Positions 1 to 18,226 of a DNA stretch of 18,226 bases are shown piece by piece. The notes under the pieces are model-generated. The model saw only the letters and a list, made by a program, of their open reading frames with translations, was not told the DNA's origin and did no database searches. Numbering within the stretch: the stretch's first letter is position 1; each line of letters begins with the position of its first letter. This stretch comes from Treponema sp. (GTDB taxonomy: Bacteria; Spirochaetota; Spirochaetia; Treponematales; Breznakiellaceae), in the NCBI GenBank assembly GCA_031269405.1, contig JAISZE010000141.1, positions 1 through 18,226 of the forward strand, read 5' to 3'. A program made the translations under genes and the position numbers.

Positions 1-1
1 A

Positions 2-118: not shown

Positions 119-127
119 CGCAGGCGG

Positions 128-824: not shown

Positions 825-857
825 TAAAGCGTTCGTGGGCGGTTTACGTAATTTAGC

Positions 858-886
858 TTGACACAAAATAGGGTTTTTGTTAAACT
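858..886 (+). promoter_or_regulatory. Sigma-70-type promoter for rpmF-acpP(-rnc)
   Basis: A perfect -35 hexamer TTGACA (858-863) is followed after exactly 17 bases by TAAACT (881-886), which matches the -10 consensus at four of six positions. It lies in the short gap between coaD and rpmF, about 40 bases before the rpmF ATG. The downstream genes therefore need not depend on coaD read-through. The call rests on consensus match and position only. Confidence 0.6.
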
Positions 887-928
887 TAAAATCTATGTTT
901 GATTTATCTATTCGAAGTGAGGTTAGAG

Positions 929-1117: not shown

Positions 1118-1135
1118 GGATCAAGGTGGAATAAG

Positions 1136-2237: not shown

Positions 2238-2350
2238 AGAGGCTTTTTACCCACCTGGAGCGGCTAAACTTGACCCGCCTTTTTTTGCGAAAGCCTGGGG
2301 CGGGGGAAAGCCTGAGAAAAACATTTGGAATTCCCCGCCGGAGCGTATAA
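2231..2350 (+). CDS. Possible 39-codon ORF overlapping the rnc stop
   Basis: An ATG at 2231 overlaps the rnc stop (ATGTTGA) and opens a 39-codon frame, basic and leucine-rich (MLKRLFTHLERLNLTRLFLR...), that ends at 2348-2350 inside the terminator hairpin. The start-stop overlap resembles translational coupling. However, the only Shine-Dalgarno-like run (GAGGAGG) is roughly 25 bases upstream, too far away, and I recognise no family. It is more likely spurious than real and is listed so that it can be tested. Confidence 0.15.
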   Translation: MLKRLFTHLERLNLTRLFLRKPGAGESLRKTFGIPRRSV

Positions 2351-2381
2351 AAGACTTGACGTCGGCGTCAAGTCTTTTATA
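2346..2381. terminator. Bidirectional intrinsic terminator between convergent rnc and cca
   Basis: A perfect 16-bp inverted repeat, TATAAAAGACTTGACG (2346-2361) and its exact complement (2366-2381), encloses a 4-base TCGG loop. The A-tract in the left arm and T-tract in the right arm make it symmetrical, so it can end transcription from either side. It lies between rnc on the + strand and cca on the - strand, where such an element is expected. The U-tract is part of the stem rather than beyond it. Confidence 0.75.
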
Positions 2382-2459
2382 GCAGAGGCGGACTCTACAA
2401 GCGTTTTTCACGGGGTTTTCCCCGCCCCCGGGTTATCAAGGCGTGATTGCGGGACAAGT

Positions 2460-3851: not shown

Positions 3852-3873
3852 GCTGTAAACTCCAAGCGAGGAA

Positions 3874-3902
3874 TTGCCTGCCGCTGGTTACTATACTATA
3901 AT
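3874..3902 (+). promoter_or_regulatory. Sigma-70-type promoter for the thiN-folE2 gene run
   Basis: TTGCCT (3874-3879), 17 bases, then a perfect TATAAT (3897-3902). It lies 27 bases before the GTG start of thiamine pyrophosphokinase, in the short gap between that gene and the divergent cca. The -10 is consensus and the -35 matches at four of six positions. A promoter for cca on the other strand must overlap this region but I could not place it confidently. Confidence 0.6.
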
Positions 3903-3929
3903 AAGGTATTCCGGGAAAGGGAGGGAACT

Positions 3930-4559
3930 GTGCGGGGCATCGCTGTCATCGGAGGGGAAGGGCCAAAGCCCGCAATATGCCGCGGTCTGGCTGAAGGGGC
4001 GGACATCGTCCTCGCCGCGGATTCGGGGCTTGCGGCAGCCGAAGACGCGGGGCTCTTGCCGGACTGGATTGTTGGGGATATGGATTCCCTGGACGACCCG
4101 GGGCGGCTTGAAAAGTATCCTCCTGAAAGGATACGCCGGTTTCCGGGGGACAAGGATTATACCGATACCGAACTGGCCCTCTCGTGCCTTTGGGAACAGG
4201 GCTGCGCTGAAATCTGGCTTGCAGGCGGCGGCGGCGGAAGGGTGGATCATCTGTTTGCCATCCGCTCTCTTTTTGAACGGGAGCCCTGTCCGGCCCGCTG
4301 GATCACCGCCAGGGAGGACATGCGCTGCGTCAAGGCCCGCGGGGAGTTGAACCTTACGCTCTTTCCGGGAAGCCTGGTTTCGGTGTTTCCCCTGGGAGAG
4401 GGACCCTGGGATGCCGGGAGTTCCGGCCTCAAATGGCCCCTTGCCGGCTGCCTCTGGAACCGGGGCAGTTTCGGCATCAGCAATGTGGCCGTTGACGGGC
4501 ATTGTTCGGTACATGTTACAAAGGGTAAATTTTTGATAATTGTCCCGTTAGCGGATTAA
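3930..4559 (+). CDS. thiN: Thiamine pyrophosphokinase
   Basis: This enzyme transfers pyrophosphate from ATP to thiamine, making the active cofactor thiamine diphosphate. It allows use of salvaged thiamine. The 209-residue product shows the family motifs in order: AADSG (29-33), the acidic metal/substrate motif GDMDS (49-53), DKDYTDTELAL (74-84) and GGRVDH (102-107). A C-terminal thiamine-binding beta region (GSFGISN...) follows. The frame is open further upstream, but those 35 codons are unconserved and run back over the cca promoter region. GTG at 3930 is chosen because it directly precedes the conserved RGIAVIGGEG strand and has a GGGAGG ribosome-binding site about 5 bases away. I see no room for a thiamine riboswitch between the promoter and this start. 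Confidence 0.93.
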   Translation: MRGIAVIGGEGPKPAICRGLAEGADIVLAADSGLAAAEDAGLLPDWIVGDMDSLDDPGRLEKYPPERIRRFPGDKDYTDTELALSCLWEQGCAEIWLAGGGGGRVDHLFAIRSLFEREPCPARWITAREDMRCVKARGELNLTLFPGSLVSVFPLGEGPWDAGSSGLKWPLAGCLWNRGSFGISNVAVDGHCSVHVTKGKFLIIVPLAD

Positions 4560-4594
4560 AGTATAAAAGGATAAGAATAAGGACTATATACTTT

Positions 4595-5437
4595 ATGATT
4601 GACGTTCAAAACCAGGCGGATCACCGGGACTTGCCATTGGGCAAGGTAGGCGTCAAGGGCCTGGAATACCCTGTTACGGTGCTGGACCGGGAAAAGAAAA
4701 TCCAGCATTCCGCCGCAAAGGTGGATCTCTATGCCGATCTTCCCCGCCATTTTAAGGGTACCCACATGAGCCGGTTTATCGAGATTTTCCACCAGTACCG
4801 GGAAGATCTCTCTATGCCCAGGTTTCTGGATATGCTCAGGGCAATACGCGGCGAACTGGAAGCCAAATCGGCTTTTGGCTCCATGTCTTTTCCCTATTTT
4901 ATCGAAAAGAAAGCTCCTGTTTCCGGGCTTCCGGGGATAATGTCCTATCAGTGCCGCTACCAGGGCAGGGTCTCAGGCAGACCGGGCTGCGGCGAAGGCG
5001 GCGTCTGGGAGAAACACTTTACCGTGGCGGTTTCCGTTCCGGTAACCACAGTCTGCCCCTGTTCCAAAGCCATATCCGACAGAGGCGCCCATAACCAGCG
5101 GGGGGTGGTTACGGTGGAACTGGAACTGGGGCCTTTTTTCTGGATAGAGGATATTATTTCCCTTGTTGAAAAAGCCGCTTCAAGCCCGGTTTATTCCCTT
5201 ATCAAGCGGGAAGATGAAAAATACATCACCGAACATGCCTACGATAATCCGAAATTTGTTGAAGATCTGGTCCGGGATGTTTATATTGAAATAAGGGACT
5301 TGAACCAGTTTCCGCGCTTTTCCGTAGAGGCGGAAAATTTTGAAAGCATCCATAATCACAGCGCCTTTGCCTTTGCCGAGTATAACCCCTCAGCCGTGCC
5401 GGCCAGGGAAGGCGCAGGGGAGGCATTGTATGAATGA
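4595..5437 (+). CDS. folE2: GTP cyclohydrolase IB (FolE2)
   Basis: FolE2 converts GTP to 7,8-dihydroneopterin triphosphate, the first step toward tetrahydrofolate and, in many bacteria, queuosine. It is the variant that does not depend strictly on zinc. The 280-residue length fits the family. Conserved parts include HRDLPLGKVGVKGLEYPV near the N-terminus, GTHMSRFIE, the TVCPCSKAIS segment with the conserved metal/nucleophile Cys, DRGAHNQR, and the C-terminal IHNHSAFA. The stretch SGRPGCGEGGVWEK before the central strand looks somewhat expanded. The ATG lies 35 bases after thiN, with AAGGA-type sequence about 12 bases upstream, and probably belongs to the same transcript. The stop overlaps the next start by 8 bases, indicating coupling. 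No metal-responsive operator is recognisable. Confidence 0.95.
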   Translation: MIDVQNQADHRDLPLGKVGVKGLEYPVTVLDREKKIQHSAAKVDLYADLPRHFKGTHMSRFIEIFHQYREDLSMPRFLDMLRAIRGELEAKSAFGSMSFPYFIEKKAPVSGLPGIMSYQCRYQGRVSGRPGCGEGGVWEKHFTVAVSVPVTTVCPCSKAISDRGAHNQRGVVTVELELGPFFWIEDIISLVEKAASSPVYSLIKREDEKYITEHAYDNPKFVEDLVRDVYIEIRDLNQFPRFSVEAENFESIHNHSAFAFAEYNPSAVPAREGAGEALYE

Positions 5438-5798
5438 TATGGAACCTTCAGGGACCGCGCTGGCCAAACAGGGCGTCGCCGCTGCAGGCGGTATCGTGGG
5501 CGGCGTCCTGCTCCTGGCTATGCATATCCTGGGAGGCCGCTTCAGGCTTGTAGGGATACTCCTGGGGCTGATTGTCGGCGGGGTAGGGGTGAGCGGCCTT
5601 CTTTCCAGGGATCCTGAAGATAAAAAGCCCGGCCTTATCCTTACCGCCGCAGGGGCCCTGGAACTGGTTTTTCAATTTGGAATTCCTTTTTTAAAACCTA
5701 TTGCCGGGACTATTTTGGGCTTTTCGGCCCTGGGGCTTTTGGCTGTAGGCATCTGGAAGGGTATACGCTTCCTCAAGGGTCTGCGGAGCAGAAGGTAA
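5430..5798 (+). CDS. Small membrane protein of unknown function, four predicted transmembrane segments
   Basis: The 122-residue product is hydrophobic and Gly/Leu-rich. Likely membrane segments are at about 13-35, 38-58, 67-86 and 90-109. A charged loop (RDPEDKKPG, about 60-68) separates the two pairs, and the tail is basic (KGIRFLKGLRSRR). The two halves look like related helical hairpins. I recognise no family. The ATG at 5430 is supported by GGGGAGG (5417-5423) 6 bases upstream and overlaps the end of folE2 by 8 bases, so translation is probably coupled. The basic C-terminus suggests that end is cytoplasmic. Nothing in the sequence links it to folate or tRNA modification beyond its position. 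Confidence 0.75.
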   Translation: MNDMEPSGTALAKQGVAAAGGIVGGVLLLAMHILGGRFRLVGILLGLIVGGVGVSGLLSRDPEDKKPGLILTAAGALELVFQFGIPFLKPIAGTILGFSALGLLAVGIWKGIRFLKGLRSRR

Positions 5799-5846
5799 TT
5801 GTGTGGTAGTAACAGGTAACACGCCCTCTGGCAGGCGCCTTTTCAG

Positions 5847-7181
5847 GTGAAGTATTTTTTTGAGACCTACGGCTGCCAGATGAACCTGGCGGAATCAGCG
5901 GCCCTAAGCCTTGCCGCCCGGGAACGGGGCTGGGAGGAGGCCCGTGATCCGGAATCCGCCGACCTTATCCTCCTCAACACCTGTTCTGTCCGGGCCACCG
6001 CCGAGGAGCGGGTCATGGGCAGGCTGGGCCAGTATGGGGCGCTGAAAAAAAAACGCCGCAATAATCCCTTTATTCTGGTAGTAGCAGGCTGTATGGCCCA
6101 GAGGCTGGGGGAAAAACTCAAGCTTGAGGCCCCGGGGGTGGACTATGTGATGGGTACTTCGTCGCGTTCCTTCTTTCCCCAGATCCTTGAAGCCGCTGAA
6201 GAGGGCGGAAGGGCTCTTGAAATTTCAGAAAAACCCGAATTCAGTTTTTCCTCTTCGCACCTGGAAGAAGGCCGGTTCCGTGCCTTTATCCCCATCATGC
6301 ATGGCTGCGATAATTTCTGTTCCTACTGTATAGTCCCCTATGTCCGGGGCAGGGAAATCTCCAGGAGCCCTGCTTCTGTTCTGGAAGAGATACGCATGGT
6401 CAGGGAAAGGGGGGTGCGGGAAATCACCCTTTTGGGGCAGAATGTCAATTCCTACCGGTACTATGATGGTGAAACAGGGACTCTTAATTTTCCGGGGCTT
6501 TTGGAACGCGTTGCCCTGGAACTTGAGAACAGTCCCCTCAGGTGGGTGCGTTTTCTTTCCAGCCATCCCAAGGACCTTTCGCCTGATGCTGTCAGTATAA
6601 TGGCCGGGAACCAGGTGTTCTGCCGCCATCTCCACCTCTGCGTCCAGCACGGTTCCGATTCTGTGCTTAAAGCCATGAACCGCCGCTATACCCGGGAACA
6701 GTACCTGGATCTGGTATTCCGGCTTCGCTCGGCTATGCCGGATCTGAGCCTTTCCACGGATATTCTGGTGGGTTTTCCCGGCGAAACCGAAGAGGATCTT
6801 GAAGAGACCCTGGCACTGATGGAGGAAGTCAAATTCCTTTATGCTTATATGTACCATTATAATCCCCGTGAGGGGACAGCGGCCTATTCCCTGCCGGGAC
6901 GTATCGCCGAAGGGGTAAAGCGGAAGCGTCTGGCCCGGGTAATAGAACTGCAAAAACGGCATACTGCGGTTCTTTTACAGGCTAGGCTGGGTTCTGAAGC
7001 GGTGGTTTTGGTAGAGGGAATTTCCCGTAAAAATGCCGATGAATTAATAACCCGTACTGAACGGGATGAAATGGTCGTGGTTCCCGGGAAGCCCTCGATG
7101 CTGGGCCGTTTCGGCATCCTCACCCTTTCGTCCCTCAAAGGGAACACCTTCCGGGCAGCCGGAATTACGCTGTTGGACTAG
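5847..7181 (+). CDS. miaB: tRNA-2-methylthio-N6-isopentenyladenosine-37 synthase (MiaB)
   Basis: MiaB is a radical-SAM methylthiotransferase that adds a methylthio group to i6A at position 37 of tRNAs reading U-starting codons. In the 444-residue protein the N-terminal UPF0004 domain carries the three auxiliary-cluster cysteines C10, C46 and C82. The radical-SAM domain holds C154-x3-C158-x2-C161 within HGCDNFCSYC. LLGQNVNSY is typical of MiaB rather than the RimO or MtaB paralogues, and the C-terminus is a TRAM RNA-binding domain. The expected PVQSGS-like motif reads CVQHGSD, a small departure. The start is GTG at 5847, giving the conserved MKYFFETYGCQMN. Only weak ribosome-binding sequence (GGCAGG) precedes it. 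The 48-base gap from the membrane-protein gene has no obvious terminator, so it may be in the same transcript. Confidence 0.96.
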   Translation: MKYFFETYGCQMNLAESAALSLAARERGWEEARDPESADLILLNTCSVRATAEERVMGRLGQYGALKKKRRNNPFILVVAGCMAQRLGEKLKLEAPGVDYVMGTSSRSFFPQILEAAEEGGRALEISEKPEFSFSSSHLEEGRFRAFIPIMHGCDNFCSYCIVPYVRGREISRSPASVLEEIRMVRERGVREITLLGQNVNSYRYYDGETGTLNFPGLLERVALELENSPLRWVRFLSSHPKDLSPDAVSIMAGNQVFCRHLHLCVQHGSDSVLKAMNRRYTREQYLDLVFRLRSAMPDLSLSTDILVGFPGETEEDLEETLALMEEVKFLYAYMYHYNPREGTAAYSLPGRIAEGVKRKRLARVIELQKRHTAVLLQARLGSEAVVLVEGISRKNADELITRTERDEMVVVPGKPSMLGRFGILTLSSLKGNTFRAAGITLLD

Positions 7182-7207
7182 TCCGGACCGCCGGACAAGG
7201 AGGCCTT

Positions 7208-7519
7208 ATGGGGCGCTTGATCGGATTCATACTTATTTTCGCTGTTTTTCTTACTTTTATTGTCCTTAATCTGGATAACAAATGCGACGTTTCCCTGGGG
7301 TTCAGAACCATCCGGGAAATTCCTGTTTTTATAACCGTCTTTGTTTCTTTCTTTCTGGGCATGTTCTGCGCTGTTCCTTTTGTCATATCCTTTGGCAGGA
7401 AAAAGTCTCCTGCTAAGGGGGTTCCGTCAAAACAGGCTAAAAAATGGGGGAAAAACAAAGACGGAGCTTCCCCGCTCCCTGAAGACCTGAAAGGCGACGG
7501 GCCCTATGGGATCGACTAG
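7208..7519 (+). CDS. LapA-domain (DUF1049-like) inner-membrane protein
   Basis: The 103-residue protein has two hydrophobic segments, about 3-22 and 39-63. Between them is a short loop with the asparagine-rich VLNLDN motif that typifies LapA/DUF1049 proteins. The cytoplasmic tail is Lys/Pro/Gly-rich and likely disordered. In Proteobacteria LapA (YciS) works with LapB in controlling lipopolysaccharide synthesis. Treponemes are not known for classical LPS, so only the membrane topology should be carried over. A strong AAGGAGG lies 5 bases before the ATG. A 6-bp hairpin (GTCCGG/CCGGAC, 7181-7196) sits just upstream of that site. The 3' end overlaps the SPOR-protein gene by 14 bases, so the two are translationally linked. 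Family assignment rests on topology and loop sequence. Confidence 0.78.
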   Translation: MGRLIGFILIFAVFLTFIVLNLDNKCDVSLGFRTIREIPVFITVFVSFFLGMFCAVPFVISFGRKKSPAKGVPSKQAKKWGKNKDGASPLPEDLKGDGPYGID

Positions 7520-8396
7520 GTTTTCCTATTTTCTCAGCGCAGTCTTTTTGTTTTTTTTAGCATTTCCCCTGAATGCCCAAAATGGTTCAGGCGCGGTTTC
7601 CCTGGCGGCGGAGATGGACAGGCTCGAAAAGCAGCAGGCCCTGCCGGCACAGAAGAGCGACGCCCTGTTCCGGCAGGCAAGGCTCTACCAGCTCGCGGGG
7701 AACTACGAAAAAGCCGCCCAGGCCTGGCGGGAGGGAGCCAATCCTTCTCCCGCTGACACCAGGGCCCTGCTGGAAGCTTCAAGGCTTTTTATTTCCCTTG
7801 GGGAATACGACAAGGCCGAGTCAGGAATCAAGGTCCTTTTTGCTGCCGGCGATGAGTCTCCCGGGGTCATGCTCCTGAACGCCCAGCTCCAGGCTTTTAA
7901 AACAGGGGACACCCAGGCTCTTGCCCTGTTGGCGGCGGATCCTGCCTGCGCCGTTATGCGCAGCGGAATATACTATACGCTCTGGAAAATCACCGGAATC
8001 CAGGCCTGGAAGACACGGCTCCTTGTTGAATACCCCCAAAGCCCCGAAGCCCGCATAGCCCGCGATGCCGCAGGGATTATTCCCGCAGGCAGCCCCCAGT
8101 GGCTTCTCTTCCCTGGCAGGGAAAGCATAAGCCTAGCCACTGGTACGGCTTCGCCTGGGGCTGAGTCTCCTGCGGCGCCTGCCGCCGCACTGCAAACCGG
8201 TCTCTTTAACAGGGAAGAAAACGCCAGGGCCATGGCAGGACGCTTGGAAAAAGCGGGCTTTCAGGCCCGCTTGGCGCGCCGCAGCGTCAACAGCGACGAG
8301 TACTGGGCCGTTCTGGTCCCGTGCGGCGCTGAGGCCGGCAAAACCCTCATGGAACTTAAAAACGCGGGATTCGAGTCCTTTCCGGTATTTGAGTAA
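7506..8396 (+). CDS. Secreted TPR-like protein with C-terminal SPOR domain
   Basis: The 296-residue product begins with a signal peptide (hydrophobic core about 8-20, likely cut after PLNA at 24). The middle, about 35-185, is alpha-helical with tetratricopeptide-like units, for example ALFRQARLYQLAGNYEKAAQAW. An Ala/Pro-rich linker leads to a SPOR domain at about 229-296, opening with ALQTGLFNREENARAMAGRLEKAGF. SPOR domains bind peptidoglycan strands lacking stem peptides, often at division or growth sites. The protein is therefore likely periplasmic and cell-wall associated, with the TPR part recruiting a partner. It overlaps the LapA-domain gene by 14 bases in another frame. It ends 8 bases before the convergent pallilysin-like gene, with no recognisable hairpin between them. 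Confidence 0.85.
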   Translation: MGSTRFSYFLSAVFLFFLAFPLNAQNGSGAVSLAAEMDRLEKQQALPAQKSDALFRQARLYQLAGNYEKAAQAWREGANPSPADTRALLEASRLFISLGEYDKAESGIKVLFAAGDESPGVMLLNAQLQAFKTGDTQALALLAADPACAVMRSGIYYTLWKITGIQAWKTRLLVEYPQSPEARIARDAAGIIPAGSPQWLLFPGRESISLATGTASPGAESPAAPAAALQTGLFNREENARAMAGRLEKAGFQARLARRSVNSDEYWAVLVPCGAEAGKTLMELKNAGFESFPVFE

Positions 8397-8404
8397 TCCC
8401 CCTT

Positions 8405-9952
8405 CTATTCATTCGCCAGAGTCAGCGATATCGTCCCTTCATGGAGTTCCTGTATGCCCCTGGCGCCCAGGCGTACCCGTAGGAGCGTCATGGTTTTCCG
8501 GGGTCCTGCCTTGTCCTCTTCCCCTTCAGGAACAGACGGGGATTCTACCACGTAGGTTTCCCTGTCCCTGGAAAGGCCGCCAACACGGGGATCTGTGGAA
8601 CGCAGCTCCAATAGTTCCCGGCCTTCAAGGGAGAAGAAGGCGTATTTCCCTTGCCTGAAGGCATCTCCTGCGTAAAATTCGTAGTTTCCGTCAGGGTAAA
8701 ACCGGATTTTTCCGATAGAGCCGTCATAAACCGCATCGATATAAGCGCTGTTCCCGGAAGGTTTGGCGGCGCGGTTTTCCATGGGCTCTGCCTTGCGGTA
8801 AGAGCCGTCCCAAACGGTATTAACCCCCAGTTTGAGACGCACGTCCTCTACGACCCTTACCTTGATGCTGTCCAGGCTTTCCAGTTCCAGGTCTATAGAA
8901 CGCCTAAGTGTGGTTACTGAGATGTTCTGGCTTGATACGTAGAGGCCGTACCTTGTGGCGCTGGAATTCTGCCATGTAAAGACCTGCTGGGTTTCATCAC
9001 CGTAGAAAATAATCTCCCTGTTAGGAGGATCGAAGTAAATATACTGCCTGCTGTCTATAGTACCCTGGGCGCTCACGTAATACCACAGGCCGGTGATGAA
9101 TTCTTCAAAAGCTCCGGGGTTCCCCAGGAGTTCCTGGAGCCGGCGTTGTTCGATCTGGGTTCCCGGCACAGGGGTGACGCGGCTCTGCTCGTAAAGACCG
9201 TTGATTACGTTATAGGTGTAGGTAATTTCCACCTGATCCATGATATTCGACGAATCGTAGTCCCTGCCGTAAGCCAGAATGGAAAAACTGGCCCCCCTGG
9301 CCATACCCAACTGGTATGCCTGGGACCGCTCGGTTTCGCGGACCGAAATCGAACCGTCGATCCTGAGTTCGCCGATTTTAGTAAAAAGCTGGTTTTCCTC
9401 CCCCTCTGAAGGGGGCTGGGTCTGGGGGGGCTTGCGGAAGATAGTCAAAGTGTGTTCCCCAAGGCCGTTCATCCCCGAAAGGAGCACGCAGAGGCTCCGG
9501 TCGCCGATAAGATCCTGGGTATACAGGGAAACCGTCCCCGGCCGGGTTGCCGCAGCAGGGGCGCTCCAGAACCGCCGGTATGCCCGGAGGTTTTCGTCAT
9601 AATCAATATAGGTAAGGTACAGGGGGCTTTCCAGTTCCAGGAGGTTCCGGTAAGCCGCAATCTGTTCGTCCTGGAGATCCCCGTCAAAATCATCATTCAG
9701 GATAGTTACCAGAATCTCGCCGTCCTCAAGCGGGACTTTCAGGTTCATCTGGTTTTCCCGGGCCATACGTTCCGCCTGGTTCTCCCAGGCCCCTGTTTCC
9801 GGGCCCGGTGGCTGGGGAATAACAATACGGGTCTGCCGGGATTCGGCGTTCTTTTTTGTATTCCACGATGATGGAAAGAGGACCGCCGCGCCTATACCCA
9901 GGGCGGCAAAAATGAGGACAATAACCGCAATAATTCCAAAAAAAGGTCTCAT
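8405..9952 (-). CDS. Membrane-anchored pallilysin-like (Tp0751-family) protein without HEXXH
   Basis: The 515-residue protein has an N-terminal membrane anchor (about 4-27), a Pro/polar linker, and a large beta-rich exported region. Residues 87-96 (DDFDGDLQDE) look like the acidic calcium-binding loop of FG-GAP/VCBS-type repeats. The C-terminal third contains WDGSY (381-385), followed by FYPDGNYEFYAG and GKYAFF. This resembles the lipocalin-like barrel of T. pallidum pallilysin (Tp0751), which I recall being next to the VWA protein Tp0750. The HEXXH zinc motif of T. pallidum pallilysin is absent. The nearest is HEGTI at 504-508. A TTG 15 bases upstream is possible, but ATG 9952 has AAGGA 6 bases before it. 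It is the last gene of the operon, 17 bases after the DHH gene. Family assignment relies on context plus C-terminal pattern. Confidence 0.72.
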   Translation of the reverse strand: MRPFFGIIAVIVLIFAALGIGAAVLFPSSWNTKKNAESRQTRIVIPQPPGPETGAWENQAERMARENQMNLKVPLEDGEILVTILNDDFDGDLQDEQIAAYRNLLELESPLYLTYIDYDENLRAYRRFWSAPAAATRPGTVSLYTQDLIGDRSLCVLLSGMNGLGEHTLTIFRKPPQTQPPSEGEENQLFTKIGELRIDGSISVRETERSQAYQLGMARGASFSILAYGRDYDSSNIMDQVEITYTYNVINGLYEQSRVTPVPGTQIEQRRLQELLGNPGAFEEFITGLWYYVSAQGTIDSRQYIYFDPPNREIIFYGDETQQVFTWQNSSATRYGLYVSSQNISVTTLRRSIDLELESLDSIKVRVVEDVRLKLGVNTVWDGSYRKAEPMENRAAKPSGNSAYIDAVYDGSIGKIRFYPDGNYEFYAGDAFRQGKYAFFSLEGRELLELRSTDPRVGGLSRDRETYVVESPSVPEGEEDKAGPRKTMTLLRVRLGARGIQELHEGTISLTLANE

Positions 9953-9969
9953 TGAATTCCTTAACAAGC

Positions 9970-10944
9970 TTACGCGCCGTTCAATACACCGGTAATTCTA
10001 TCTAATACTTTCGTCAAAGTTTCTTCAATACGTTCCTTGCTCTTGAATCCCGCAGCGGAAACGTGCCCGCCTCCACCAAAGGACTGGGCGATTTTCGACA
10101 CATTCAACTCCCCTTTGGACCTGAGGGAACAGCGGACCTGGCCTTCGTGGTTTTCCTTTATCAGAACGGACACTTCGATGTCCTTGCTTTTCAAGGGTAT
10201 ATTGATAATGTTGTCGGCGTCTTCCAGATAGGCGCCTGTAGCGGTAAGATCCTCCTTCCTGAGAATCTGGACCGCTACCCGGCCTTCATTGCGGATTTCC
10301 AGAGTCGAAAGTACCTGTTTCTGCAGGAGCAGCGTTCCGGTAGAGGCGCTTTCATGGAGTTCGCGGTATACCTTGTAGGGGATCACCCCTGTTTCCACCA
10401 GGGACAGCACTGCCCGGAAGGTTCTGGCAGTGGTCTTTGAATAGGCGAAAGAGCCTGAATCGTAGCTTATCCCGGCGTAAGCAGCCTGTGCTGACACTGT
10501 ATCCAGGGCGATCCCTGCTGCAGCCGCAAGTTCTACCATTATTTCACACGTAGAAGAGGCGGTATTATCAATATAGCCCTTCAGGGAACTGAGCGGGTTG
10601 GGTTCATGGTGATCAATCGTAAACACTTCGGCTGCGAGGGGTATAAATTCCTTTACCTGCCCGATATTGTATTCATCGGAAGTATCCAGGACTGCCAGGG
10701 CCGATTCAGCAGGAATACTGTCTGCTAGGGATATGTCCCAAACCTCCATTTCCCCCTGGGGGTCCATAAACACGTAGCGCTCAGGAACAGACGCGGTATT
10801 GATGATACGGATTTTCTTGCCCAACGAACGGCAGATACATGCCAGAACGGCTTCGGCCCCTAGACCGTCCGCATCGGCCCCCTCATGGGTGGTCAGCACC
10901 AGAGATTCATGGCGGTTCAGAAAAGCAAGAATATCTTCCAGCAT
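9970..10944 (-). CDS. DHH/DHHA1-family phosphoesterase (NrnA-like)
   Basis: This manganese-dependent phosphodiesterase family degrades nanoRNA, pAp or cyclic dinucleotides. The exact substrate cannot be read from sequence. The 324-residue protein has motif I as H20-EGA-D24-A-D26, an LDTSD segment near D87, the name-giving DHH at 111-113 (IDHHEPN), and the DHHA1 GGGGH motif at 290-294 (FGGGGHVSAAGF). All expected metal ligands are present, so it should be active. It lacks extra PAS/GGDEF/CBS regions, which places it with the compact cytosolic NrnA-like type. The start is the ATG at 10944, 14 bases after the VWA gene stop, without a clear ribosome-binding site, suggesting coupling. It is a cytosolic enzyme placed between two exported proteins. 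Confidence 0.9.
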   Translation of the reverse strand: MLEDILAFLNRHESLVLTTHEGADADGLGAEAVLACICRSLGKKIRIINTASVPERYVFMDPQGEMEVWDISLADSIPAESALAVLDTSDEYNIGQVKEFIPLAAEVFTIDHHEPNPLSSLKGYIDNTASSTCEIMVELAAAAGIALDTVSAQAAYAGISYDSGSFAYSKTTARTFRAVLSLVETGVIPYKVYRELHESASTGTLLLQKQVLSTLEIRNEGRVAVQILRKEDLTATGAYLEDADNIINIPLKSKDIEVSVLIKENHEGQVRCSLRSKGELNVSKIAQSFGGGGHVSAAGFKSKERIEETLTKVLDRITGVLNGA

Positions 10945-10958
10945 GGGGCCAGCAGCTA

Positions 10959-11537
10959 TTAACTGCCCATATAGGCCGCAACGGCTCTTTTGACCTTGTC
11001 CCCTATACCCGGAGCCACTACCAGGGCCTGCCAGCCGGCGTATTCGTCCACCCGGGACCAGCGGAAAAGGCCTGCGGACCCTCCTTCCAGGGCAGGGGCC
11101 AGGGCTTCGGCGGAGCCTGATACCACTATGGTAACTGCAAGGCGCTTTCTGTCCCCGGGGTCCCGGGACGCCCTGGAAGCGGCTTCCATGAGGGCTCCGG
11201 AAAAATCCGCCCTTTTAGCGGAGGCATCCAGGGAACGGAGTTTGTCCTTAATGCCTTCTTTTTGGCCCCCTACAGTTCCGGTATAAACAATTTGAGCTTT
11301 ATCTCCTGCTGACCAGATAGTCAGGCTGTCCCCTTCCTGGAGGATCCGGTCGATTATTTCCCGGCTAATCCAGGAAACGGTCTCGTTCCTGGCTTCTTTG
11401 GACAGAGAAGAGCCGTCTATAATCAGGTACAGATCCAGGGGAAGGCTGCGTTTATCTTCGGCCCTAAGGAAGCCGGGAGCCAGGAAAAAAAGAGCCGCCC
11501 AGCAGACAGCGGTCATTCTACGGTATAATAGCTTCAT
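10959..11537 (-). CDS. Secreted VWA-like protein (Tp0750 type) with degenerate MIDAS
   Basis: The 192-residue protein has a signal peptide (basic MKLLYRR, hydrophobic core 9-21, likely cut near LRA at 26). A von Willebrand factor A fold then fills the rest: the first strand LDLYLIIDGSSLS (35-46), helix ETVSWISREIIDRIL, strand SLTIWSA, and strand LAVTIVVSG. In T. pallidum a VWA protein (Tp0750) lies near cfpA and pallilysin, which supports orthology. The metal-ion-dependent adhesion site is poor: DxS is present at 41-43, but the fifth position is Leu45. The Thr expected before GAL is Ala110, and the usual Asp after the central strand is replaced by SGS (140-142). The start at 11537 gives a normal signal peptide. 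An ATG 18 bases upstream is also in frame. It is the first gene of the operon and divergent from cfpA. Confidence 0.8.
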   Translation of the reverse strand: MKLLYRRMTAVCWAALFFLAPGFLRAEDKRSLPLDLYLIIDGSSLSKEARNETVSWISREIIDRILQEGDSLTIWSAGDKAQIVYTGTVGGQKEGIKDKLRSLDASAKRADFSGALMEAASRASRDPGDRKRLAVTIVVSGSAEALAPALEGGSAGLFRWSRVDEYAGWQALVVAPGIGDKVKRAVAAYMGS

Positions 11538-11603
11538 AATCCGATATTTTATCATATTTTTTTATTTAATGATATAAGTTTTCAATAAAAATGCAAAAAA
11601 GGC

Positions 11604-11633
11604 TTTACATTTATATGTGAATGTTGATACAAT
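11604..11633 (+). promoter_or_regulatory. Upstream promoter candidate for cfpA
   Basis: TTTACA (11604-11609), an 18-base spacer, then TACAAT (11628-11633). Each hexamer matches the sigma-70 consensus at five of six positions. It sits in the very AT-rich divergent gap between the VWA operon and cfpA. Its -10 overlaps the -35 of the second promoter, so the two could not be occupied simultaneously. Confidence 0.5.
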
Positions 11634-11653
11634 ATAAGTGTATTATGTATAAT
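11624..11653 (+). promoter_or_regulatory. Proximal promoter for cfpA
   Basis: TTGATA (11624-11629), an 18-base spacer, then a perfect TATAAT (11648-11653), about 43 bases before the cfpA ATG. The leader then runs to a strong AAGGAG ribosome-binding site (11684-11689), 7 bases before the ATG. Good promoter and ribosome-binding matches fit a gene for an abundant structural protein. No operator is recognisable. Confidence 0.65.
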
Positions 11654-11696
11654 GATCGTAGAATCAGAATAAACTAACCTTATAAGGAGTCTGAAC

Positions 11697-13763
11697 ATGG
11701 GAGCCATTGACCTGCCTAAGAGCCCTAACGTATTCCACCCGGAGAAACCGAGTGCCGTAGGTTCTCGAAATTCGCTTGCCCAGGAATACCGGGATCAACA
11801 AGCTGAAGTTAACCAACTTCTGGAAGAGGAGACCAACAAGGTCATCCATCATCTCACCGCTAAACTGCCCAAGGATACCCTGGAACGCCTGGATGTCATG
11901 GGGGGGTTGAAGGAGAAGTTGTACAACTACTTCAACCAGAATTACCAGAACATGTTTAACCGTTACATGGTAACGAGTGAAGATGAGATGGTAAAGAAGG
12001 TACGGAACTTTATCGACAAGGAAGAGACCAAGGTCCTTGCCCGGTATACGCCGAAAGAGATTGCCGATTTGCTGGACGCCGTAGGAGGCGCCGACAAGTT
12101 CAATACCGGCGAAATCGAAAAATCCATGGTCAACATGTATGGCCACCTTCAGGGCCATATCCAGCGGGGCGTCAACGAACTGGAAACGCACACCAATTCC
12201 ATACTACGCCAGAAGACCGACACCGGGGCCTTTGTCCGGGGTGAAAACGCCTATTCAATCGTTAAGTGCGCCTTCAAAGACAACCTGGTAAAGCCCAAGA
12301 CCGTTTCGGATGTTAAGCTTTCGGTAAACATCCTGGATTCGGAGCTTATCAGCCCTATTTTCCACTACCAGGTAACGGTGGAATACCTCATCAAGGATCT
12401 TTTGGGCAAGCACATCATTGATTCCATCGATCACACCATCGAAGGGATCAAGGACGAGCGGGTTGATCAGGGCCTGGAAGAGTTCTCGGACAGCGAGATC
12501 CTCTTTACCAAGATCGGCCAAGTCGAGAATTTCACGGATGATAAAATCGACGACCCCAAATCCAAGCGCTATTCCATTATCGCCAAGACGGTTATGGAAA
12601 AGATCAACGATCTCAGGGCCGAAATCGATCCCGAAACTTTCGATCAGATGAACATTCGCGAGAATATCAAGAAGATCGTCGATATCGAGAACATCAGGAA
12701 CCGGGGTTTCAACACCGCCATCAATTCCATCACTTCTATCCTGGACACCTCCAAGATGGGGTATCAGTACATTGAAAACCTCAAAAACGCCCGGGAAGTC
12801 ATTATCCGGGAATATGAGGACACCGATGTGGCGAACCTCCCTGACGAACGGTACCAGATCAAGCTCCGCTACTTCGATAATGCCCAACTCACGGAGGATC
12901 GCAAGGCCTACGATGTGCAGCTCAAGAGCTTTGAGACCGAAGTCCAGCATCTGTGGGATGTCCTTGAAGTTATCTACCAGGATTCCAAGAATTCCTGGAA
13001 AGTCAACGATTTTGAGGATCTGGCCAGGAAGGAGAAACCCCGTATTCAGAAGCTTATCAAAGCCAAGACCGGAGAGCCCCTGTACGAAGATATCGCCAAG
13101 GTCTGGGACGAGATTTCCTTTGTCCGCGCCGGGGAGACGGAAGTGGAACGCTCCAACCGCACCTACATCTATGAAAAAGACCGGATCCGCCAGCGGATCA
13201 TCCTGATGCGGAACAAGATGAAGCAAATGTATACGTACCAGTACCCCATCGAGCGGCGGGTTATGGAAGACCGGCTCTCGTTCCTTGAGAGGGAATACTA
13301 CCGGTTTGAATACATGATCAACCCCTATCATCTCCAGCCCGGGCTTCTCCTGGATGTGGATATTACTTCTATTAAACGGAAAAAGGCGACACTGGACGCT
13401 ATGGCTAACGTGCTCAACGAATTCCTCCACGGTGTGTCCAAGGGGTTCCAGGACGCGGCGTTCGCGTCTTTCAGCCGCCGGCGCTCTACGGTGCGGGAGG
13501 ACATCAACCAGTCCTTCTCGACAGTTGAGGACAGCAAAACCGCCCAGTCCGCCGAAGCGGGCGGCAGTTCGGCCTATCTGGATCTTCTCAATTCCGACAG
13601 CCCCGCGAGCGTTTCTGATTCCGAAACCAAGGCCATCGTTGCGCCCAAACGGGGCCGCGGCGCGGCTAAAGCCAAGGGCGCCGCGGTAGACGCCAAGCCT
13701 GGACGCAGGGGACGCAAAGCTGGCCGCAGTACAGGCGGTGATGTTGCTCTGAAAGAAGTTTAA
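11697..13763 (+). CDS. cfpA: Cytoplasmic filament protein A (CfpA)
   Basis: CfpA is the roughly 80-kDa subunit of the ribbon-like cytoplasmic filaments that run under the inner membrane of treponemes, along the line of the periplasmic flagella. In other treponemes its loss disturbs cell division and chromosome partitioning. The 688-residue product matches the known length and the hydrophilic, charged, mostly alpha-helical character. It has long heptad-like stretches, such as around 315-430 and 480-560, and no signal peptide or membrane segment. The N-terminus [19 protein letters not shown] is distinctive. C-ending codons and AAG for Lys dominate, consistent with high expression. The last 44 residues form a low-complexity basic tail (KRGRG at 651-655, [10 protein letters not shown] at 668-677). 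The gene has tandem promoters and its own intrinsic terminator, so it is probably expressed mostly as a monocistronic message. Confidence 0.93.
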
Positions 13764-13788
13764 TCATAAAAAATCGGTTGTTTAGCCG

Positions 13789-13817
13789 AAACGCCCCCGT
13801 CTCCGGGGGCGTTTTTT
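13789..13817 (+). terminator. Intrinsic terminator after cfpA
   Basis: AAACGCCCCCG (13789-13799) pairs perfectly with CGGGGGCGTTT (13804-13814) around a 4-base TCTC loop, followed directly by more T residues (six in a row in total). This is a textbook rho-independent terminator. It lies between the cfpA stop and the AGGAGG ribosome-binding site (13820-13825) of the next gene, so downstream genes get either leaky read-through or an unseen promoter. Confidence 0.9.
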
Positions 13818-13833
13818 CTAGGAGGTTCAAGGA

Positions 13834-14892
13834 ATGAGTAAAGAGACAGCGAATCTTGAGGTGTTGTCCAGCAGAGCAGGTTTCAACTCCGCAGTGCGGC
13901 ACATGAATAAAACTATCCAGATTGCCGGAACTCTGGGAAGCAGTAATCTGGGAGACCTCCTCTATGAACGGGGCGATGAGAATCTTTCCGGCGAACGCAG
14001 CAAGCTGCTCCTCAATATGCTTCTGGTGGATAAGCTGGGATATAAATCCGTGTCTTCCAACCTTGGAACCGTAGCAGGGGATATCCCCTCATTGGCCCGG
14101 GAATTTGAAAAGTGGAAGGCTGTTGACCTGATAGCTGCATATCATCATCCTGATTTGGGCCTCCTTGTGGCGAATCCAAAAGTTGCCGAAGAGCTTGCCA
14201 ATTTCGGAATGCTTAGGAAACGGGAACTCCTGGTAATATACGCCGGTAAAGGCGGTGTTCCTGCTGACGAAAACTGCCAGAAAGCCGCTGAACTGGCGCT
14301 TACCCTTTTTGAAGGCCGTAAGGCAAAGGTCCCTGCGGAGATTCTCAAGGGCAGTTTTATCGCAACGAAGCTGAAAAAAGCCGAAGAGGAAAAACCCGCA
14401 AAGGTCAAAACGGCCAGGGCCGGAAAACCCGTCCGGGCCGCGAAAGCCGCCGAACCCGCCACGGGAAGGGGCAGTGTCCCGGCGCCTGTTCCCAGGGAAA
14501 TCACCAGAGTAGCGCCGCCTATGGTTACCGCAGCGGCTCCCGCCATTTCCAAAGGCCCTGTGCGGATGACCCCTATGTACTCCGTTGTCGTTTCCAACGA
14601 ACTTTTCCACAACGGAAACGTAGAAGCCTGGAAGCGTATTGTGGCCAGTTACAAAGCCAAATACCCTGCCCTGGAAGTTTACATTTACTATGAAGGCGAG
14701 CGCATCCTGGACATAAACTCCCTCTTCAAATGGGGTAAGGTCAAACACGGCAGTGCCATTCAGTTTGCCGTGGCCGGAAACGATATCAAGGATGTGGCCA
14801 AACTTCAGCGTTACCTGGTTCAAGGGGCCAGCCATCAGTTTGAGGCCTTCCTGCATGGTCCGGTAAACAATGTGTTGAAGCTGTTCGGTTAA
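13834..14892 (+). CDS. Uncharacterised treponemal protein with C-terminal HPr-like domain
   Basis: The 352-residue protein has three parts. Residues 1-180 form a soluble alpha/beta domain I cannot assign. About 183-244 is a Lys/Ala/Pro-rich, probably disordered linker. About 245-345 resembles the phosphocarrier HPr by eye: a strand ending NELFH, helix NVEAWKRIVASY, strands EVYIYYEGERI, then NSLFKWGKVKHGSAIQFAVAGND and helix KDVAKLQRYL. E. coli HPr has NGLH15, later S46LFK and QGTVVTISAEGED in the same order. His259 aligns with His15 and Ser296 with Ser46, but the Arg17-Pro18 pair is replaced by Gly-Asn and the first helix-strand loop is about six residues longer. AGGAGG lies 8 bases before the ATG. 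T. pallidum has a gene at the same place between ppdK and cfpA. The gene is certain; the HPr resemblance needs structural confirmation. Confidence 0.9.
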   Translation: MSKETANLEVLSSRAGFNSAVRHMNKTIQIAGTLGSSNLGDLLYERGDENLSGERSKLLLNMLLVDKLGYKSVSSNLGTVAGDIPSLAREFEKWKAVDLIAAYHHPDLGLLVANPKVAEELANFGMLRKRELLVIYAGKGGVPADENCQKAAELALTLFEGRKAKVPAEILKGSFIATKLKKAEEEKPAKVKTARAGKPVRAAKAAEPATGRGSVPAPVPREITRVAPPMVTAAAPAISKGPVRMTPMYSVVVSNELFHNGNVEAWKRIVASYKAKYPALEVYIYYEGERILDINSLFKWGKVKHGSAIQFAVAGNDIKDVAKLQRYLVQGASHQFEAFLHGPVNNVLKLFG

Positions 14893-14902
14893 GGGGGAAA
14901 AA

Positions 14903-17569
14903 ATGGATAACAGAATACACTTTTTTAGTCAGATTGATGTCATCCCCAAGAAGATCGAACCTGAAAAACTGGGGATCCGGGGCCGGCAGGCCAATGAATT
15001 CGCCGAACTGGGCTTTCCTATTCTCCCTGGTTTCATACTGGATACGGATATCGCCTCCAAGCTGGAGCCCAAGGAGATCAAAAAGGATATTTTGGCCCTG
15101 CTGGACAAGTGCGCCGGTATTGTGGGTAAAAAGTATGGGGATTCCGAAAACCCCATGCTCCTGAAAGTGGTCATATCTTCAAACCTGGCCATCACCACCT
15201 ATCCCACGCTCCATAACTTCGGTCTTGTAAAACCCACTATTGAAGGCTTCGGCAACTGGGTAGGTAAGGATTTTGCCGTCCACGAAGTGCTCTTTCTGGT
15301 CCGGGGAATGCTTAAAATTGAGGAGCGTATCAAGGAACTGGAGGATAAGTCCAAGGAACAGGCGGAAATTGCCGCCAAACTCAAGGCCCTGGACAATATG
15401 CTGGGTATCAGGAGACCTTCCAACGAACTGGGACTTGAGGAAGAACACATTCCCATTGACAAGAGCGCCGGGGAATACATGAACCTCTACGCCAAATACT
15501 TCCCGGCAGGCTTTTTTGACAGCGCCGAAAACCAGCTTCTCCTGACCCTGGGAGAAGTTACCCGCATGTTCCAGATGGACGATCAGAACGATAATGATAC
15601 CGCTCTTATGATCGCCCCTATGGTCTACGGGAACTACGGCAAGGATTCCTGTTCCGGGGACTTCTTCAGCCGCAACGTGGTCACAGGGGAAAAGAAGCTC
15701 CAGGGCAAATTCTTCAGGGAAAAATTCAACGAGGTTGACGCGGAAGGCCAGAGCATCGACAAGGTAGGCGACAAGCACCTTAAGGAACTCCAGAAGATCG
15801 CCTGGACCCTGGAAGACAAGTTCAAAGAAATCCGCCATGTCCGCTTCACCATTGAAAACAGCAAGCTTTGGCTTATAGAGCAGCGCCAGGTGGAGCAGAA
15901 ATCCACCCAGTCGGACATCAAACTCCTCCTGGATCTGGCCAAGCGGAAGATCGTGGACAACGCCTATGTGGTCAAGGCTATCGATCCCCTGCGGCTTAAC
16001 GAAATTCTCCACCCTGTTATCGATCCCGGAAGCGTCAAGGGCCTCAAATCCTGGAAAGGCGGTATTGCCGGCGCCCCTGGGGCGGCTATCGGCAGGGTGT
16101 ATTTTACCACCGATTCCCTCCTGGAAGCCAAAAAGCTGGCCCAGCAACGGGGCGAGGACACCAGGACCATCTTGGTGGCGATTTCCTCTTTCGCTGAAGA
16201 TGTTAAGGCTATCGAAGTGAGTACCGGGGTGCTCACCGCTGAAGGAGGCTATTCTGCCCATGCATCGGTTGTCGCCAGGCAGTACGGCAAAGTGTCCCTG
16301 GTTGCCCCTGATCTAAAAATCAAGGGCAGAAAAGCCACGCTAGGGAGTTTCAGCTTTTCCGAGGGGGATTATATCACCCTTAACGTACCTTTCTACGGCC
16401 AGTCCAATGTTTACGCCGGGACCGCCACCCTTATCGAGCCGGATCCCAAGGAATCGGGTCTTCTCGACTTTATCACCCTTTCCAAAAGCTTCCTCAGGAA
16501 CTTCCATGTCCGGTGCAACGCTGATACCACCCGGGACGCCACGCTGGCCCTGAGCTTTGGCGCCGACGGCGTGGGGCTCTGCCGCACGGAACACATGTTT
16601 TTTAAGGCCGAACGCATCAACGTTTTCCGGGAAATGCTCCTGTCGGACAATGACAAGGACCGGGTAAAGGCCCTGACCAAGCTCCAGGTCATGCAGCGGG
16701 AGGATTTCTACGGCATCTTTAAGGTAATGGTCGGCAAGGAAGTGACCATAAGGCTCCTGGATTCGCCGCTTCATGAATTTATGCCCCATAATGACGATGA
16801 ACTTGCGGCTTACATAGCCCATGTGGCAAAGACCAAAAAGGTGAAGCCTTCGAAGCCGGAAATTCTCGCCCAGATCGACGCCCTCCACGAGTTCAACCCC
16901 ATGCTGGGGCACCGGGGCTGCCGTATCGCAGTTTCCTATCCTGAGATCTACGCCATGCAGGTCAAAGCCATCTTCGAAGCGGCTTACAAGCTGCGTTCCG
17001 AAGGAGTGGACGTCAGGCCTGAGATCATGGTTCCTATTGTTATGAACGCCTCGGAACTCAAGCTGATTGCGTACGGCAAGAAGATCGAAGGCGCCAGCTA
17101 CCAGGGCATCGTGGACATTGAGGAAGAACTCAGGGCCGAAAAAAAGGCCAAACCTGTGGAATACCAGATTGGCACCATGATCGAGCTTCCTGCCGCGGCA
17201 TTAGGCGCCGGAGAAATCGCCAAGTACGGCCGGTTCTTCAGCTTCGGCACCAATGATCTGACCCAGACCACCTTGGGAATTTCCAGAGATGACTTTACCG
17301 CCTTCATGCCCGACTACACCCTCTTCGACCTTATCCAGGGGAACCCCTTCAGTACCCTGGATTCCCGGGTCAAGGAGCTCATCGCTATGGCTACCGAACG
17401 GGGGCGGCTTACCCGGCCCGACCTGGCCTGCGGTCTCTGCGGTGAACACGGGGCTAATCCCGCTAATGTGCGGTTCTGCATGGAAGCGGGGCTTAATTAT
17501 GTTTCCTGTTCTCCCTATTCGGTGCCTATCGCCCTGCTTGCGGTGGTCCAAGCCGAACTGGAGCGCTAA
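14903..17569 (+). CDS. ppdK: Pyruvate phosphate dikinase-family protein with atypical ATP-grasp domain
   Basis: Classical PPDK interconverts ATP, phosphate and pyruvate with AMP, pyrophosphate and PEP through a phospho-histidine. The 888-residue protein has the full domain order. Its central His453 lies in TAEGGYSAHASVVAR. The C-terminal barrel keeps R561 (GLCRTEHMF), R617 (RLLDSPLHEF), E761 (MIELP), N784 (FGTND) and C846 (GLCGEHG), all matching PEP/pyruvate residues of the Clostridium symbiosum enzyme. The N-terminal nucleotide domain is unusual. The GGKGANL Lys reads R26, the SVRSGAR phosphate loop reads KVVISSN (88-94), and the DxE before FT reads H312-V-R314. The following LQTR motif is IEQR, with E326 for Gln. 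ATP use is therefore doubtful. A Lys/Glu-rich helical insert (about 138-165) is also atypical. GGGGGA precedes the ATG, which follows the upstream stop by 10 bases. Family membership is certain; dikinase activity is not. Confidence 0.93.
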   Translation: MDNRIHFFSQIDVIPKKIEPEKLGIRGRQANEFAELGFPILPGFILDTDIASKLEPKEIKKDILALLDKCAGIVGKKYGDSENPMLLKVVISSNLAITTYPTLHNFGLVKPTIEGFGNWVGKDFAVHEVLFLVRGMLKIEERIKELEDKSKEQAEIAAKLKALDNMLGIRRPSNELGLEEEHIPIDKSAGEYMNLYAKYFPAGFFDSAENQLLLTLGEVTRMFQMDDQNDNDTALMIAPMVYGNYGKDSCSGDFFSRNVVTGEKKLQGKFFREKFNEVDAEGQSIDKVGDKHLKELQKIAWTLEDKFKEIRHVRFTIENSKLWLIEQRQVEQKSTQSDIKLLLDLAKRKIVDNAYVVKAIDPLRLNEILHPVIDPGSVKGLKSWKGGIAGAPGAAIGRVYFTTDSLLEAKKLAQQRGEDTRTILVAISSFAEDVKAIEVSTGVLTAEGGYSAHASVVARQYGKVSLVAPDLKIKGRKATLGSFSFSEGDYITLNVPFYGQSNVYAGTATLIEPDPKESGLLDFITLSKSFLRNFHVRCNADTTRDATLALSFGADGVGLCRTEHMFFKAERINVFREMLLSDNDKDRVKALTKLQVMQREDFYGIFKVMVGKEVTIRLLDSPLHEFMPHNDDELAAYIAHVAKTKKVKPSKPEILAQIDALHEFNPMLGHRGCRIAVSYPEIYAMQVKAIFEAAYKLRSEGVDVRPEIMVPIVMNASELKLIAYGKKIEGASYQGIVDIEEELRAEKKAKPVEYQIGTMIELPAAALGAGEIAKYGRFFSFGTNDLTQTTLGISRDDFTAFMPDYTLFDLIQGNPFSTLDSRVKELIAMATERGRLTRPDLACGLCGEHGANPANVRFCMEAGLNYVSCSPYSVPIALLAVVQAELER

Positions 17570-17574
17570 ATCCG

Positions 17575-17610
17575 CCTGCCCACCCGGAGGGCGATATCCG
17601 GGTGGGTGGG
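17575..17610. terminator. Hairpin between convergent ppdK-like and epimerase genes
   Basis: CCCACCCGGA (17579-17588) pairs perfectly with TCCGGGTGGG (17597-17606) around an 8-base loop. Adding two G-U wobbles and two C-G pairs extends the stem to 14 bp (17575-17610). It lies 5 bases after the ppdK-like stop and just beyond the end of the epimerase gene. No T-run follows on either strand, so it may terminate weakly, act as an mRNA 3' stabiliser, or need Rho. Confidence 0.5.
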
Positions 17611-17615
17611 AGATG

Positions 17616-18226
17616 TCAAGGCTTAATGCGGGTCAGGTTTAGATCTGCCAGGGCTTTCTCCCGGGCGGCGATGACCCTGTCGCACCAGGCGTCGAATTCG
17701 GGGTCCTCTTTCTGGCATTCCTTGTGGGATAGGATATACTCAAGGCTTTTCTTTACCCCCTGGTCGAAGCGGACAAGGGCCGTGAAACCCGGAACCAGGC
17801 GCTTGAGCTTGGCGTTGTCGAATACCGCCGAATTAGCCTTGTCCCCCGTAAGGCTTCCCCGGAAATCGTAGGGCCCCGACTCATGGAGGAAATCGCTGGA
17901 AATGTGCACTGCCTTGAGGGATACTCCCAGGGCGGCGGCTACGGTTTCGTAAATCTGGTTCCAGGTGAGGGCTTCGTCAGAGGTGATTTGTACCGATTCT
18001 CCCAGGGCATGGATGTTCCCCATAAGGCCGATGAAGGCTTCGGCGAAGTCGCTGCTTGAAGTCATGGTCCAGAGGCTCGTGCCGTCGCCGTGGATGATCA
18101 CCGGCTTGCCCTCAAGCATACGCTTCAGAATCTGCCAGCTTCCGTTAGCCCCGTGGATTCCAAGGGGCACATTCCGCTCGTCATAAGTATGGCTGGGGAG
18201 GACTATGGTAACCGGGAAACCTTCTT
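17616..18226 (-). CDS. NAD-dependent epimerase/dehydratase (C-terminal part; start outside window)
   Basis: The visible 203 residues are the C-terminal half of an extended short-chain dehydrogenase. The frame runs to the right edge with no stop, from a PVTIVLPSHTYDERNVPLG segment. It passes through HGDGTSLWTMTSSSDFAEAFIGLMG, the loop that marks sugar-nucleotide epimerases and dehydratases near the substrate pocket, to SDEALTWNQIYETVAAALGV and a helical C-terminus with the stop at 17616-17618. A GTG at 18170 could begin a shorter frame, but the conserved residues before it show it is internal. The Rossmann NAD site and the YxxxK catalytic pair lie outside the window, so substrate and activity cannot be stated. 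It converges on the ppdK-like gene. UDP- or CDP-sugar modification is the usual role, inferred from family only. Confidence 0.88.
   Translation of the reverse strand, partial: EGFPVTIVLPSHTYDERNVPLGIHGANGSWQILKRMLEGKPVIIHGDGTSLWTMTSSSDFAEAFIGLMGNIHALGESVQITSDEALTWNQIYETVAAALGVSLKAVHISSDFLHESGPYDFRGSLTGDKANSAVFDNAKLKRLVPGFTALVRFDQGVKKSLEYILSHKECQKEDPEFDAWCDRVIAAREKALADLNLTRIKP

Follow-up and report, generated by a model that had tools for sequence, protein, structure and literature searches.

In both pyruvate phosphate dikinase (PPDK) and enzyme I of the phosphotransferase system (PTS), the half-reaction with phosphoenolpyruvate (PEP) is chemically self-contained. The N-terminal domain of PPDK binds phosphate and pyrophosphate (Pi/PPi), and PTS-Ntr and other permease-less PTS are PEP-fed histidine relays with a regulatory output and no sugar transport. 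The locus described here lies on 18,226 nucleotides of DNA from Treponema sp. (assembly GCA_031269405.1, contig JAISZE010000141.1, positions 1 to 18,226; this whole stretch is called the window) and encodes, in this order, cytoplasmic filament protein A (CfpA), a protein named X and a PPDK homologue named PP, for pseudo-PPDK. The nucleotide site of PP is degraded and its PEP and His sites are kept throughout a family that occurs in the same genomes as X. It is proposed that PP transfers phosphate from PEP to X, forming a PTS-like relay tied to the cytoplasmic filaments, a reading to which a probability of about 0.6 is given.

A PPDK Homologue with a Degraded Nucleotide Site

The features of PP in the window, with the corresponding positions of Clostridium symbiosum PPDK in brackets, are the following.

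14903-17569, forward strand: PP, 888 aa with an ATG start; PPDK-derived, nucleotide site degraded, His and PEP sites intact-looking
14903-15892, forward strand: N-domain of PP (aa 1-330), degenerate ATP-grasp by alignment; missing in the orthologues of genomes G033 and G096
14978-14980, forward strand: R26 (K22), by alignment
15170-15172, forward strand: V90 (R92), by alignment
15836-15844, forward strand: H312 and R314 (D321 and E323), by alignment
15878-15880, forward strand: E326 (Q335), by alignment
16259-16261, forward strand: His453, phospho-acceptor position (His455)
16427-17566, forward strand: PEP-binding domain with R561, R617, E761, N784, D785 and C846, by Pfam and alignment

PP matches the full-length PPDK model TIGR01828 over positions 21-886 (E 2.4e-191), and its closest relative in the PDB is C. 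symbiosum PPDK (E 6e-153). Its TIGR01828 score of 637.9 bits lies below the equivalog cut-off of 843.45 bits, and Pfam recognizes PPDK_N only at 277-337, with a sub-threshold 23.4 bits (cut-off 27), while the PEP-binding domain (226 bits) and the mobile His domain (34 bits) exceed their cut-offs. Against the enzyme I model TIGR01417, PP reaches 92.2 bits, short of the 341.7 bits needed for membership, and the N-terminal, HPr-binding domain of enzyme I was not among its Pfam matches. Judged by sequence, PP is a protein of the PPDK lineage that fails the defining nucleotide site of PPDK, and is not a member of the enzyme I family. A preliminary description of this DNA had compared PP with PPDK and had named enzyme I as a relative that PP would resemble in behavior; the divergence of the nucleotide site was borne out.

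The residues K22, R92, D321, E323, Q335 and R337, which we take to be the ATP-grasp and nucleotide-site residues of PPDK, were compared by aligning 94 distinct PP orthologues with 50 canonical PPDKs of spirochaetes, with C. symbiosum PPDK (1KBL) as the anchor. In the window they correspond to R26, V90, H312, R314, E326 and R328, and R135 and D280 have also been replaced, by V129 and V278. The PEP half-reaction residues checked are retained, with His455 corresponding to H453, R561 to R561, R617 to R617, E745 to E761, N768 to N784 and C831 to C846. Apart from those at R135 and D280, these assignments, including the loss of the R92 loop and the retention of R337, had been read by eye in the preliminary description and agree with the anchored alignment.

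The same division is observed directly across the family. Among the 94 orthologues, position 22 is R in 93 and a gap in one, position 92 is V or I in 93 and a gap in one, position 323 is R in 93 and L in one, and position 335 is E or D in every protein; positions 321 and 135 carry assorted replacements, and position 337 is always R or K. H455, R561, R617, N768, D769 and C831 are unchanged in all 94, and E745 in 93 (the remaining one is read as X). The canonical spirochaete PPDKs keep K22, R92, R135, D280, D321, E323, Q335 and R337 in 50/50. Of the columns invariant in canonical proteins, 48/78 are lost in the PP orthologues within 4-244, and 103/131 are kept in the PEP domain. A second set comprised 35 further PP relatives, mostly more distant, 34 of which have the nucleotide domain; in these 34, K22 has become R, R92 has become V or I, and E323 has become K, R or M, and every tested PEP and His residue, the phospho-acceptor included, is kept in 35/35. 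The explanation of a lone degraded gene or a sequencing error was rejected because the 94 orthologues share the substitution pattern. The window PP very probably lacks dikinase activity.

PP is a paralogue distinct from true PPDK. When 20 of 80 fetched loci were submitted to a paralogue search, covering 19 related genomes that do not include the window's own, a degenerate PP and a canonical-class PPDK were both present in 19/19. The canonical copies were complete and above the cut-off in 14 and high-scoring fragments, some at contig ends, in five. All 35 further PP copies scored 849 to 1367 bits with the degenerate profile and 484 to 723 bits with the canonical one, and the PP threshold of 1e-160 was chosen after a canonical copy had reached 3.8e-159. 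For these related genomes, this answers a question raised at the outset, whether a second, canonical ppdK exists, and, together with the family-wide replacements, it supports the earlier suspicion about the default PPDK annotation.

One Lineage without the Nucleotide Domain

In two genomes PP is reduced to its His and PEP domains. The G033 protein starts at the linker, in a 587-aa frame directly after X, and that of G096 has the same form in a 548-aa frame; no N-domain was found within 5 kb around either gene. The two genomes are sisters on the tree and are counted as one loss event. In G033 (L255), cfpA is relocated and divergent (55% identity), with one stop inside the match, and in G096 no cfpA was found. 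This single lineage suggests that the dead N-domain faces the filament and that the His/PEP core serves X. It also adds to the family-wide replacement of K22, R92 and E323 in supporting the earlier claim that the nucleotide half-reaction has been lost. Two other copies without an N-domain in the match list (G071, G081) lie where contigs end and were not counted, and PP pieces in G115 and G138 likewise stop at contig ends. In G131 (L262) and G094 (L263), a frame change divides PP into two parts, neither of which is missing, reflecting either real decay or sequencing error.

Protein X, a Predicted Tandem HPr-Fold Neighbor

The gene directly upstream of PP encodes X, whose features in the window are listed below.

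13834-14892, forward strand: X, a protein of 352 aa with a predicted tandem HPr fold; gene order makes it the orthologue of TP0747/TDE0843
14032-14322, forward strand: domain 1 of X (aa 67-163), HPr-like predicted fold; residues 74-89 hold no conserved His
14569-14847, forward strand: domain 2 of X (aa 246-338), HPr-like predicted fold
14608-14610, forward strand: His259, invariant; immediately precedes helix 1 of domain 2, at the place of His15 in HPr

His259 is conserved in 92/92 orthologues and 45/45 further relatives, and a helix follows at 260-276 in the AlphaFold2 (AF2) model. This model has a topology compatible with HPr; the first 30 rows returned by VIA were HPr, Crh or NPr, with Z values up to 8.6, and Foldseek E values were above 0.001. 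X gave no Pfam match, PF00381 included, and no NCBIfam match, and is listed in a protein database under the newer Pfam accession PF27497. At the place of His-Ala-Arg-Pro, the active-centre motif of HPr and also present in the HPr sequences compared, X has HNGN, and the Ser46 position holds S, A or T. The best whole-sequence match of the A3 profile of X among PDB sequences (1.6e-4), an RxLR effector, was taken as chance, as its best stretch alone had an E of 0.31. True HPr genes (PF00381) were found in 25/26 genomes searched; none was found in G018, an assembly that may be incomplete, where enzyme I and PP are present. X would work like HPr and is a possible member of the HPr family. The preliminary description had proposed that PP takes phosphate from PEP onto its histidine and behaves like enzyme I; the retained sites are consistent with this, as is an adjoining, co-occurring protein with a predicted HPr fold and an invariant His. 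Neither this partner nor the link to filaments formed part of that description, and both are added here.

Association with the Cytoplasmic Filament Gene cfpA

Two further features of the window lie upstream of X.

11697-13763, forward strand: cfpA, cytoplasmic filament protein A (NF040882, 1218 bits, cut-off 500)
13798-13819, forward strand: terminator-like GC hairpin with a T-run, between cfpA and X

The order cfpA-X-PP is conserved among the fetched loci. X lies on the same strand at 110 of 112 PP loci, a number that includes repeats of one locus (the distinct PP proteins being 94), and the remaining two have less than 1.2 kb of upstream sequence. CfpA is encoded on the same strand as PP at 96/112 loci, and within 6 kb upstream of it in 62/62 loci where the upstream sequence exceeds 4 kb. 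Among 294 Spirochaetota genomes, X was present in 94, PP in the identical 94, and cfpA in 94, 93 of them in common with X and PP. In an overlapping draw of 145 genomes from the order, X and PP were found in the identical 70 and cfpA in 71. Within that draw, cfpA was not found in two genomes bearing X and PP, namely G025, where X is near the contig start, and G096; it occurred without them in G122 and, with low scores, in G117 (C78) and G142 (C53).

X and PP are on separate contigs in four genomes (G190, G194, G211, G241), so linkage alone does not explain their co-occurrence. In a quick tree built from the canonical PPDKs of 50 genomes, from which T. pallidum was left out because it has no canonical copy, the presence of PP and X changes at least seven times. 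A mere neighbor effect was rejected on these grounds, as distant genomes keep the pair unlinked. In T. denticola, the parts of the published reports consulted place TDE0844 as band 1 and CfpA (TDE0842) as band 3 of 16 major envelope proteins (PMC3931704), and record TDE0842-0844 as repressed together (PMC3914990); gene numbers and order identify TDE0844 as the filament-linked copy. A functional tie of PP and X to CfpA is very likely.

Several other observations concern this neighborhood. The hairpin at 13798-13819 may set the expression of X and PP below that of cfpA; the region has 13 terminator-like sites, compared with 8.5 (sd 3.0) after shuffling, a weak excess. Six genomes (G057, G001, G005, G090, G098, G104) each carry two full-length cfpA genes alongside a single X and a single PP. 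Upstream of cfpA, at 8405-9967 on the reverse strand, the window encodes a protein in which a pallilysin beta-barrel domain (PF18663) is recognized; nearby are genes for a DHH phosphoesterase and for a protein whose VWA-like match is below the cut-off.

TP0746 and the End of Glycolysis in Treponema pallidum

T. pallidum (G030) has a single PPDK-class match at E <= 1e-120 in the search of the 145 genomes, sharing 58% identity with the window PP (46% in the N-domain and 66% in the PEP domain). The match, at 810749-813361, spans the variant positions 810772 and 811414 that the available part of PMC10013896 gives for TP0746, and the cfpA frame of G030 has 678 aa, the length stated for TP0748 in an excerpt of PMC3373638; the copy is thereby identified as TP0746, in the altered-site form. 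Its residues at 22, 92, 321, 323, 335 and 337 are R, V, E, R, E and K. Passages of PMC10013896 and PMC8525777 describe TP0746 as the glycolytic PPDK, and according to the portion seen of PMC7512555 all glycolysis enzymes are present in T. pallidum. In literature excerpts, with subscription literature mostly outside the search, no statement was found that TP0746/TDE0844 lacks the nucleotide site or that likens TP0747/TDE0843 to HPr.

In a ten-genome search, pyruvate kinase was not found in T. pallidum and was present in 4/4 PP-bearing non-pallidum genomes; the control was positive in 14/14 named genomes. Three genomes of the order without PP (G093, G124, G145) likewise gave no pyruvate kinase match and no PPDK match at E <= 1e-120, so the double lack alone does not call for PP. 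From gene content, a route from PEP to pyruvate in T. pallidum is possible through the products of the following genes, PEP carboxykinase (PEPCK) and a sodium-pumping oxaloacetate decarboxylase.

L260:16039-17988, reverse strand: PEP carboxykinase (GTP), T. pallidum G030
L259:14352-17569, forward strand: oxaloacetate decarboxylase alpha and beta subunits (oadA/oadB), T. pallidum G030

Proposed Mechanism and Alternative Explanations

In the proposed relay, a PPDK paralogue would have become a PEP:protein phosphotransferase. The PEP domain and the swivelling His453 of PP would take phosphate from PEP, releasing pyruvate, as PPDK and enzyme I do, and in the absence of a usable ATP/AMP site the phosphate would pass from His453 to His259 of X. 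Where a nucleotide acceptor is lacking, the simplest way out for the phosphate is a histidine on a protein, such as the one in X. Within the CfpA module, the pair would signal the PEP/pyruvate status to the filament or act there; the phosphorylation of His453, the transfer to His259 and the action on CfpA are what we infer.

Several results weigh against the relay. Local and global hhalign comparisons of X with HPr, run with a column-shuffle control, gave no sequence support, and no HPr was among the matches of the A3 profile to PDB sequences; because sequence profiles gave no significant match, the HPr likeness of X is one of predicted fold. As to whether relatives carry the same substitutions, K22, R92 and E323 are replaced throughout, but 34 of the 35 further relatives still have Q335, 15 carry E at 321 and 13 retain D280. 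The T. pallidum copy also has E at 321, so loss of the site is not complete everywhere. The site is thus more eroded in the relatives of the window than in the distant ones, and the partly kept residues take slight weight from the relay and lend it to the very improbable alternative that PP is a working PPDK in which neighboring residues have taken over as nucleotide ligands. The constant R or K at 337 also favors that alternative, as does R26, which could partly stand in for K22, but R92, R135 and E323 are replaced together, with R, K, M or L at 323 wherever the domain is present, one lineage has no nucleotide domain at all, and canonical copies coexist. The lack in T. pallidum of another PPDK-class match or a pyruvate kinase match likewise counts against the relay.

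This lack would instead suit a PP that is still metabolic, ending glycolysis as a PEP phosphatase, if its His-phosphate is hydrolysed, or as a nucleotide-free dikinase, if Pi/PPi receives the phosphate, with X as a regulator. The intact PEP and His sites would fit such an enzyme, as would the rank of TP0746 among the most expressed T. pallidum genes in the part of PMC8525777 consulted. It is nevertheless unlikely, given the canonical-class PPDK in 19/19 related genomes, the pyruvate kinase in 4/4, the tracking of cfpA by PP, the possible PEPCK-GTP and oadA/oadB bypass, and the PP-less genomes that lack both enzymes. Moreover, the N-domain, the Pi/PPi-binding part of PPDK, is missing in G033 and G096. 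A catalytically silent scaffold, in which the filament took over the PPDK fold as a structural element or a bridge, is more doubtful still: it would account for the association with cfpA, for the presence of PP with CfpA among major envelope bands (as excerpted from PMC3931704) and for the faster divergence of the N-domain between the window and T. pallidum, but it would not be expected to keep every tested PEP and His residue in the 94 and the 35 proteins (with one unread E745), and the most altered part, the N-domain, is the one missing in G033 and G096.

Set beside these alternatives, the PP-X relay offers a candidate mechanism for the cytoplasmic filament of treponemes; T. denticola cells that lose the filament show chromosome condensation and cell filamentation, as stated in the accessible part of PMC3398590. 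A wider proposal, held tentatively and at somewhat less than even odds, is that spirochaetes evolved from PPDK a second PTS-like relay dedicated to CfpA, that PEP level controls the cytoskeleton, and that TP0746 was wrongly taken for the enzyme that concludes glycolysis, PEP reaching pyruvate through PEPCK and the sodium-pumping decarboxylase. The findings cast doubt on the standard account of how glycolysis ends in T. pallidum and name an alternative open to testing, and an enzyme I/HPr-like pair would have had a separate origin, from a different enzyme.

Comparison with Known Systems

PP aligns with PPDK (TIGR01828; 1KBL) over its full length and shares its His and PEP domains and the checked residues of the PEP half-reaction, but differs in a nucleotide site degraded family-wide, a score below the cut-off and genomic partners of its own. 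Like PTS enzyme I (TIGR01417), PP would take the phosphate of PEP onto a histidine and pass it to an HPr-fold protein, and the G033 and G096 forms consist only of His and PEP domains; unlike enzyme I, PP sides in sequence with PPDK (637.9 against 92.2 bits), has no match to the enzyme I N-terminal domain, and exists beside separate PtsI genes in 4/4 genomes searched. X resembles HPr and NPr (PF00381) in the predicted fold of both domains and in the histidine directly before the first helix of domain 2, and departs from them in having no Pfam match or HARP motif, in its tandem arrangement with a His-less domain 1, and in the S, A or T at the Ser46 position. The closest functional parallel to the proposed PP-X relay would be PTS-Ntr, likewise fed by PEP through histidine and with a regulatory output and no sugar transport, from which the relay differs in its enzyme lineage, its carrier and its link to a filament protein.
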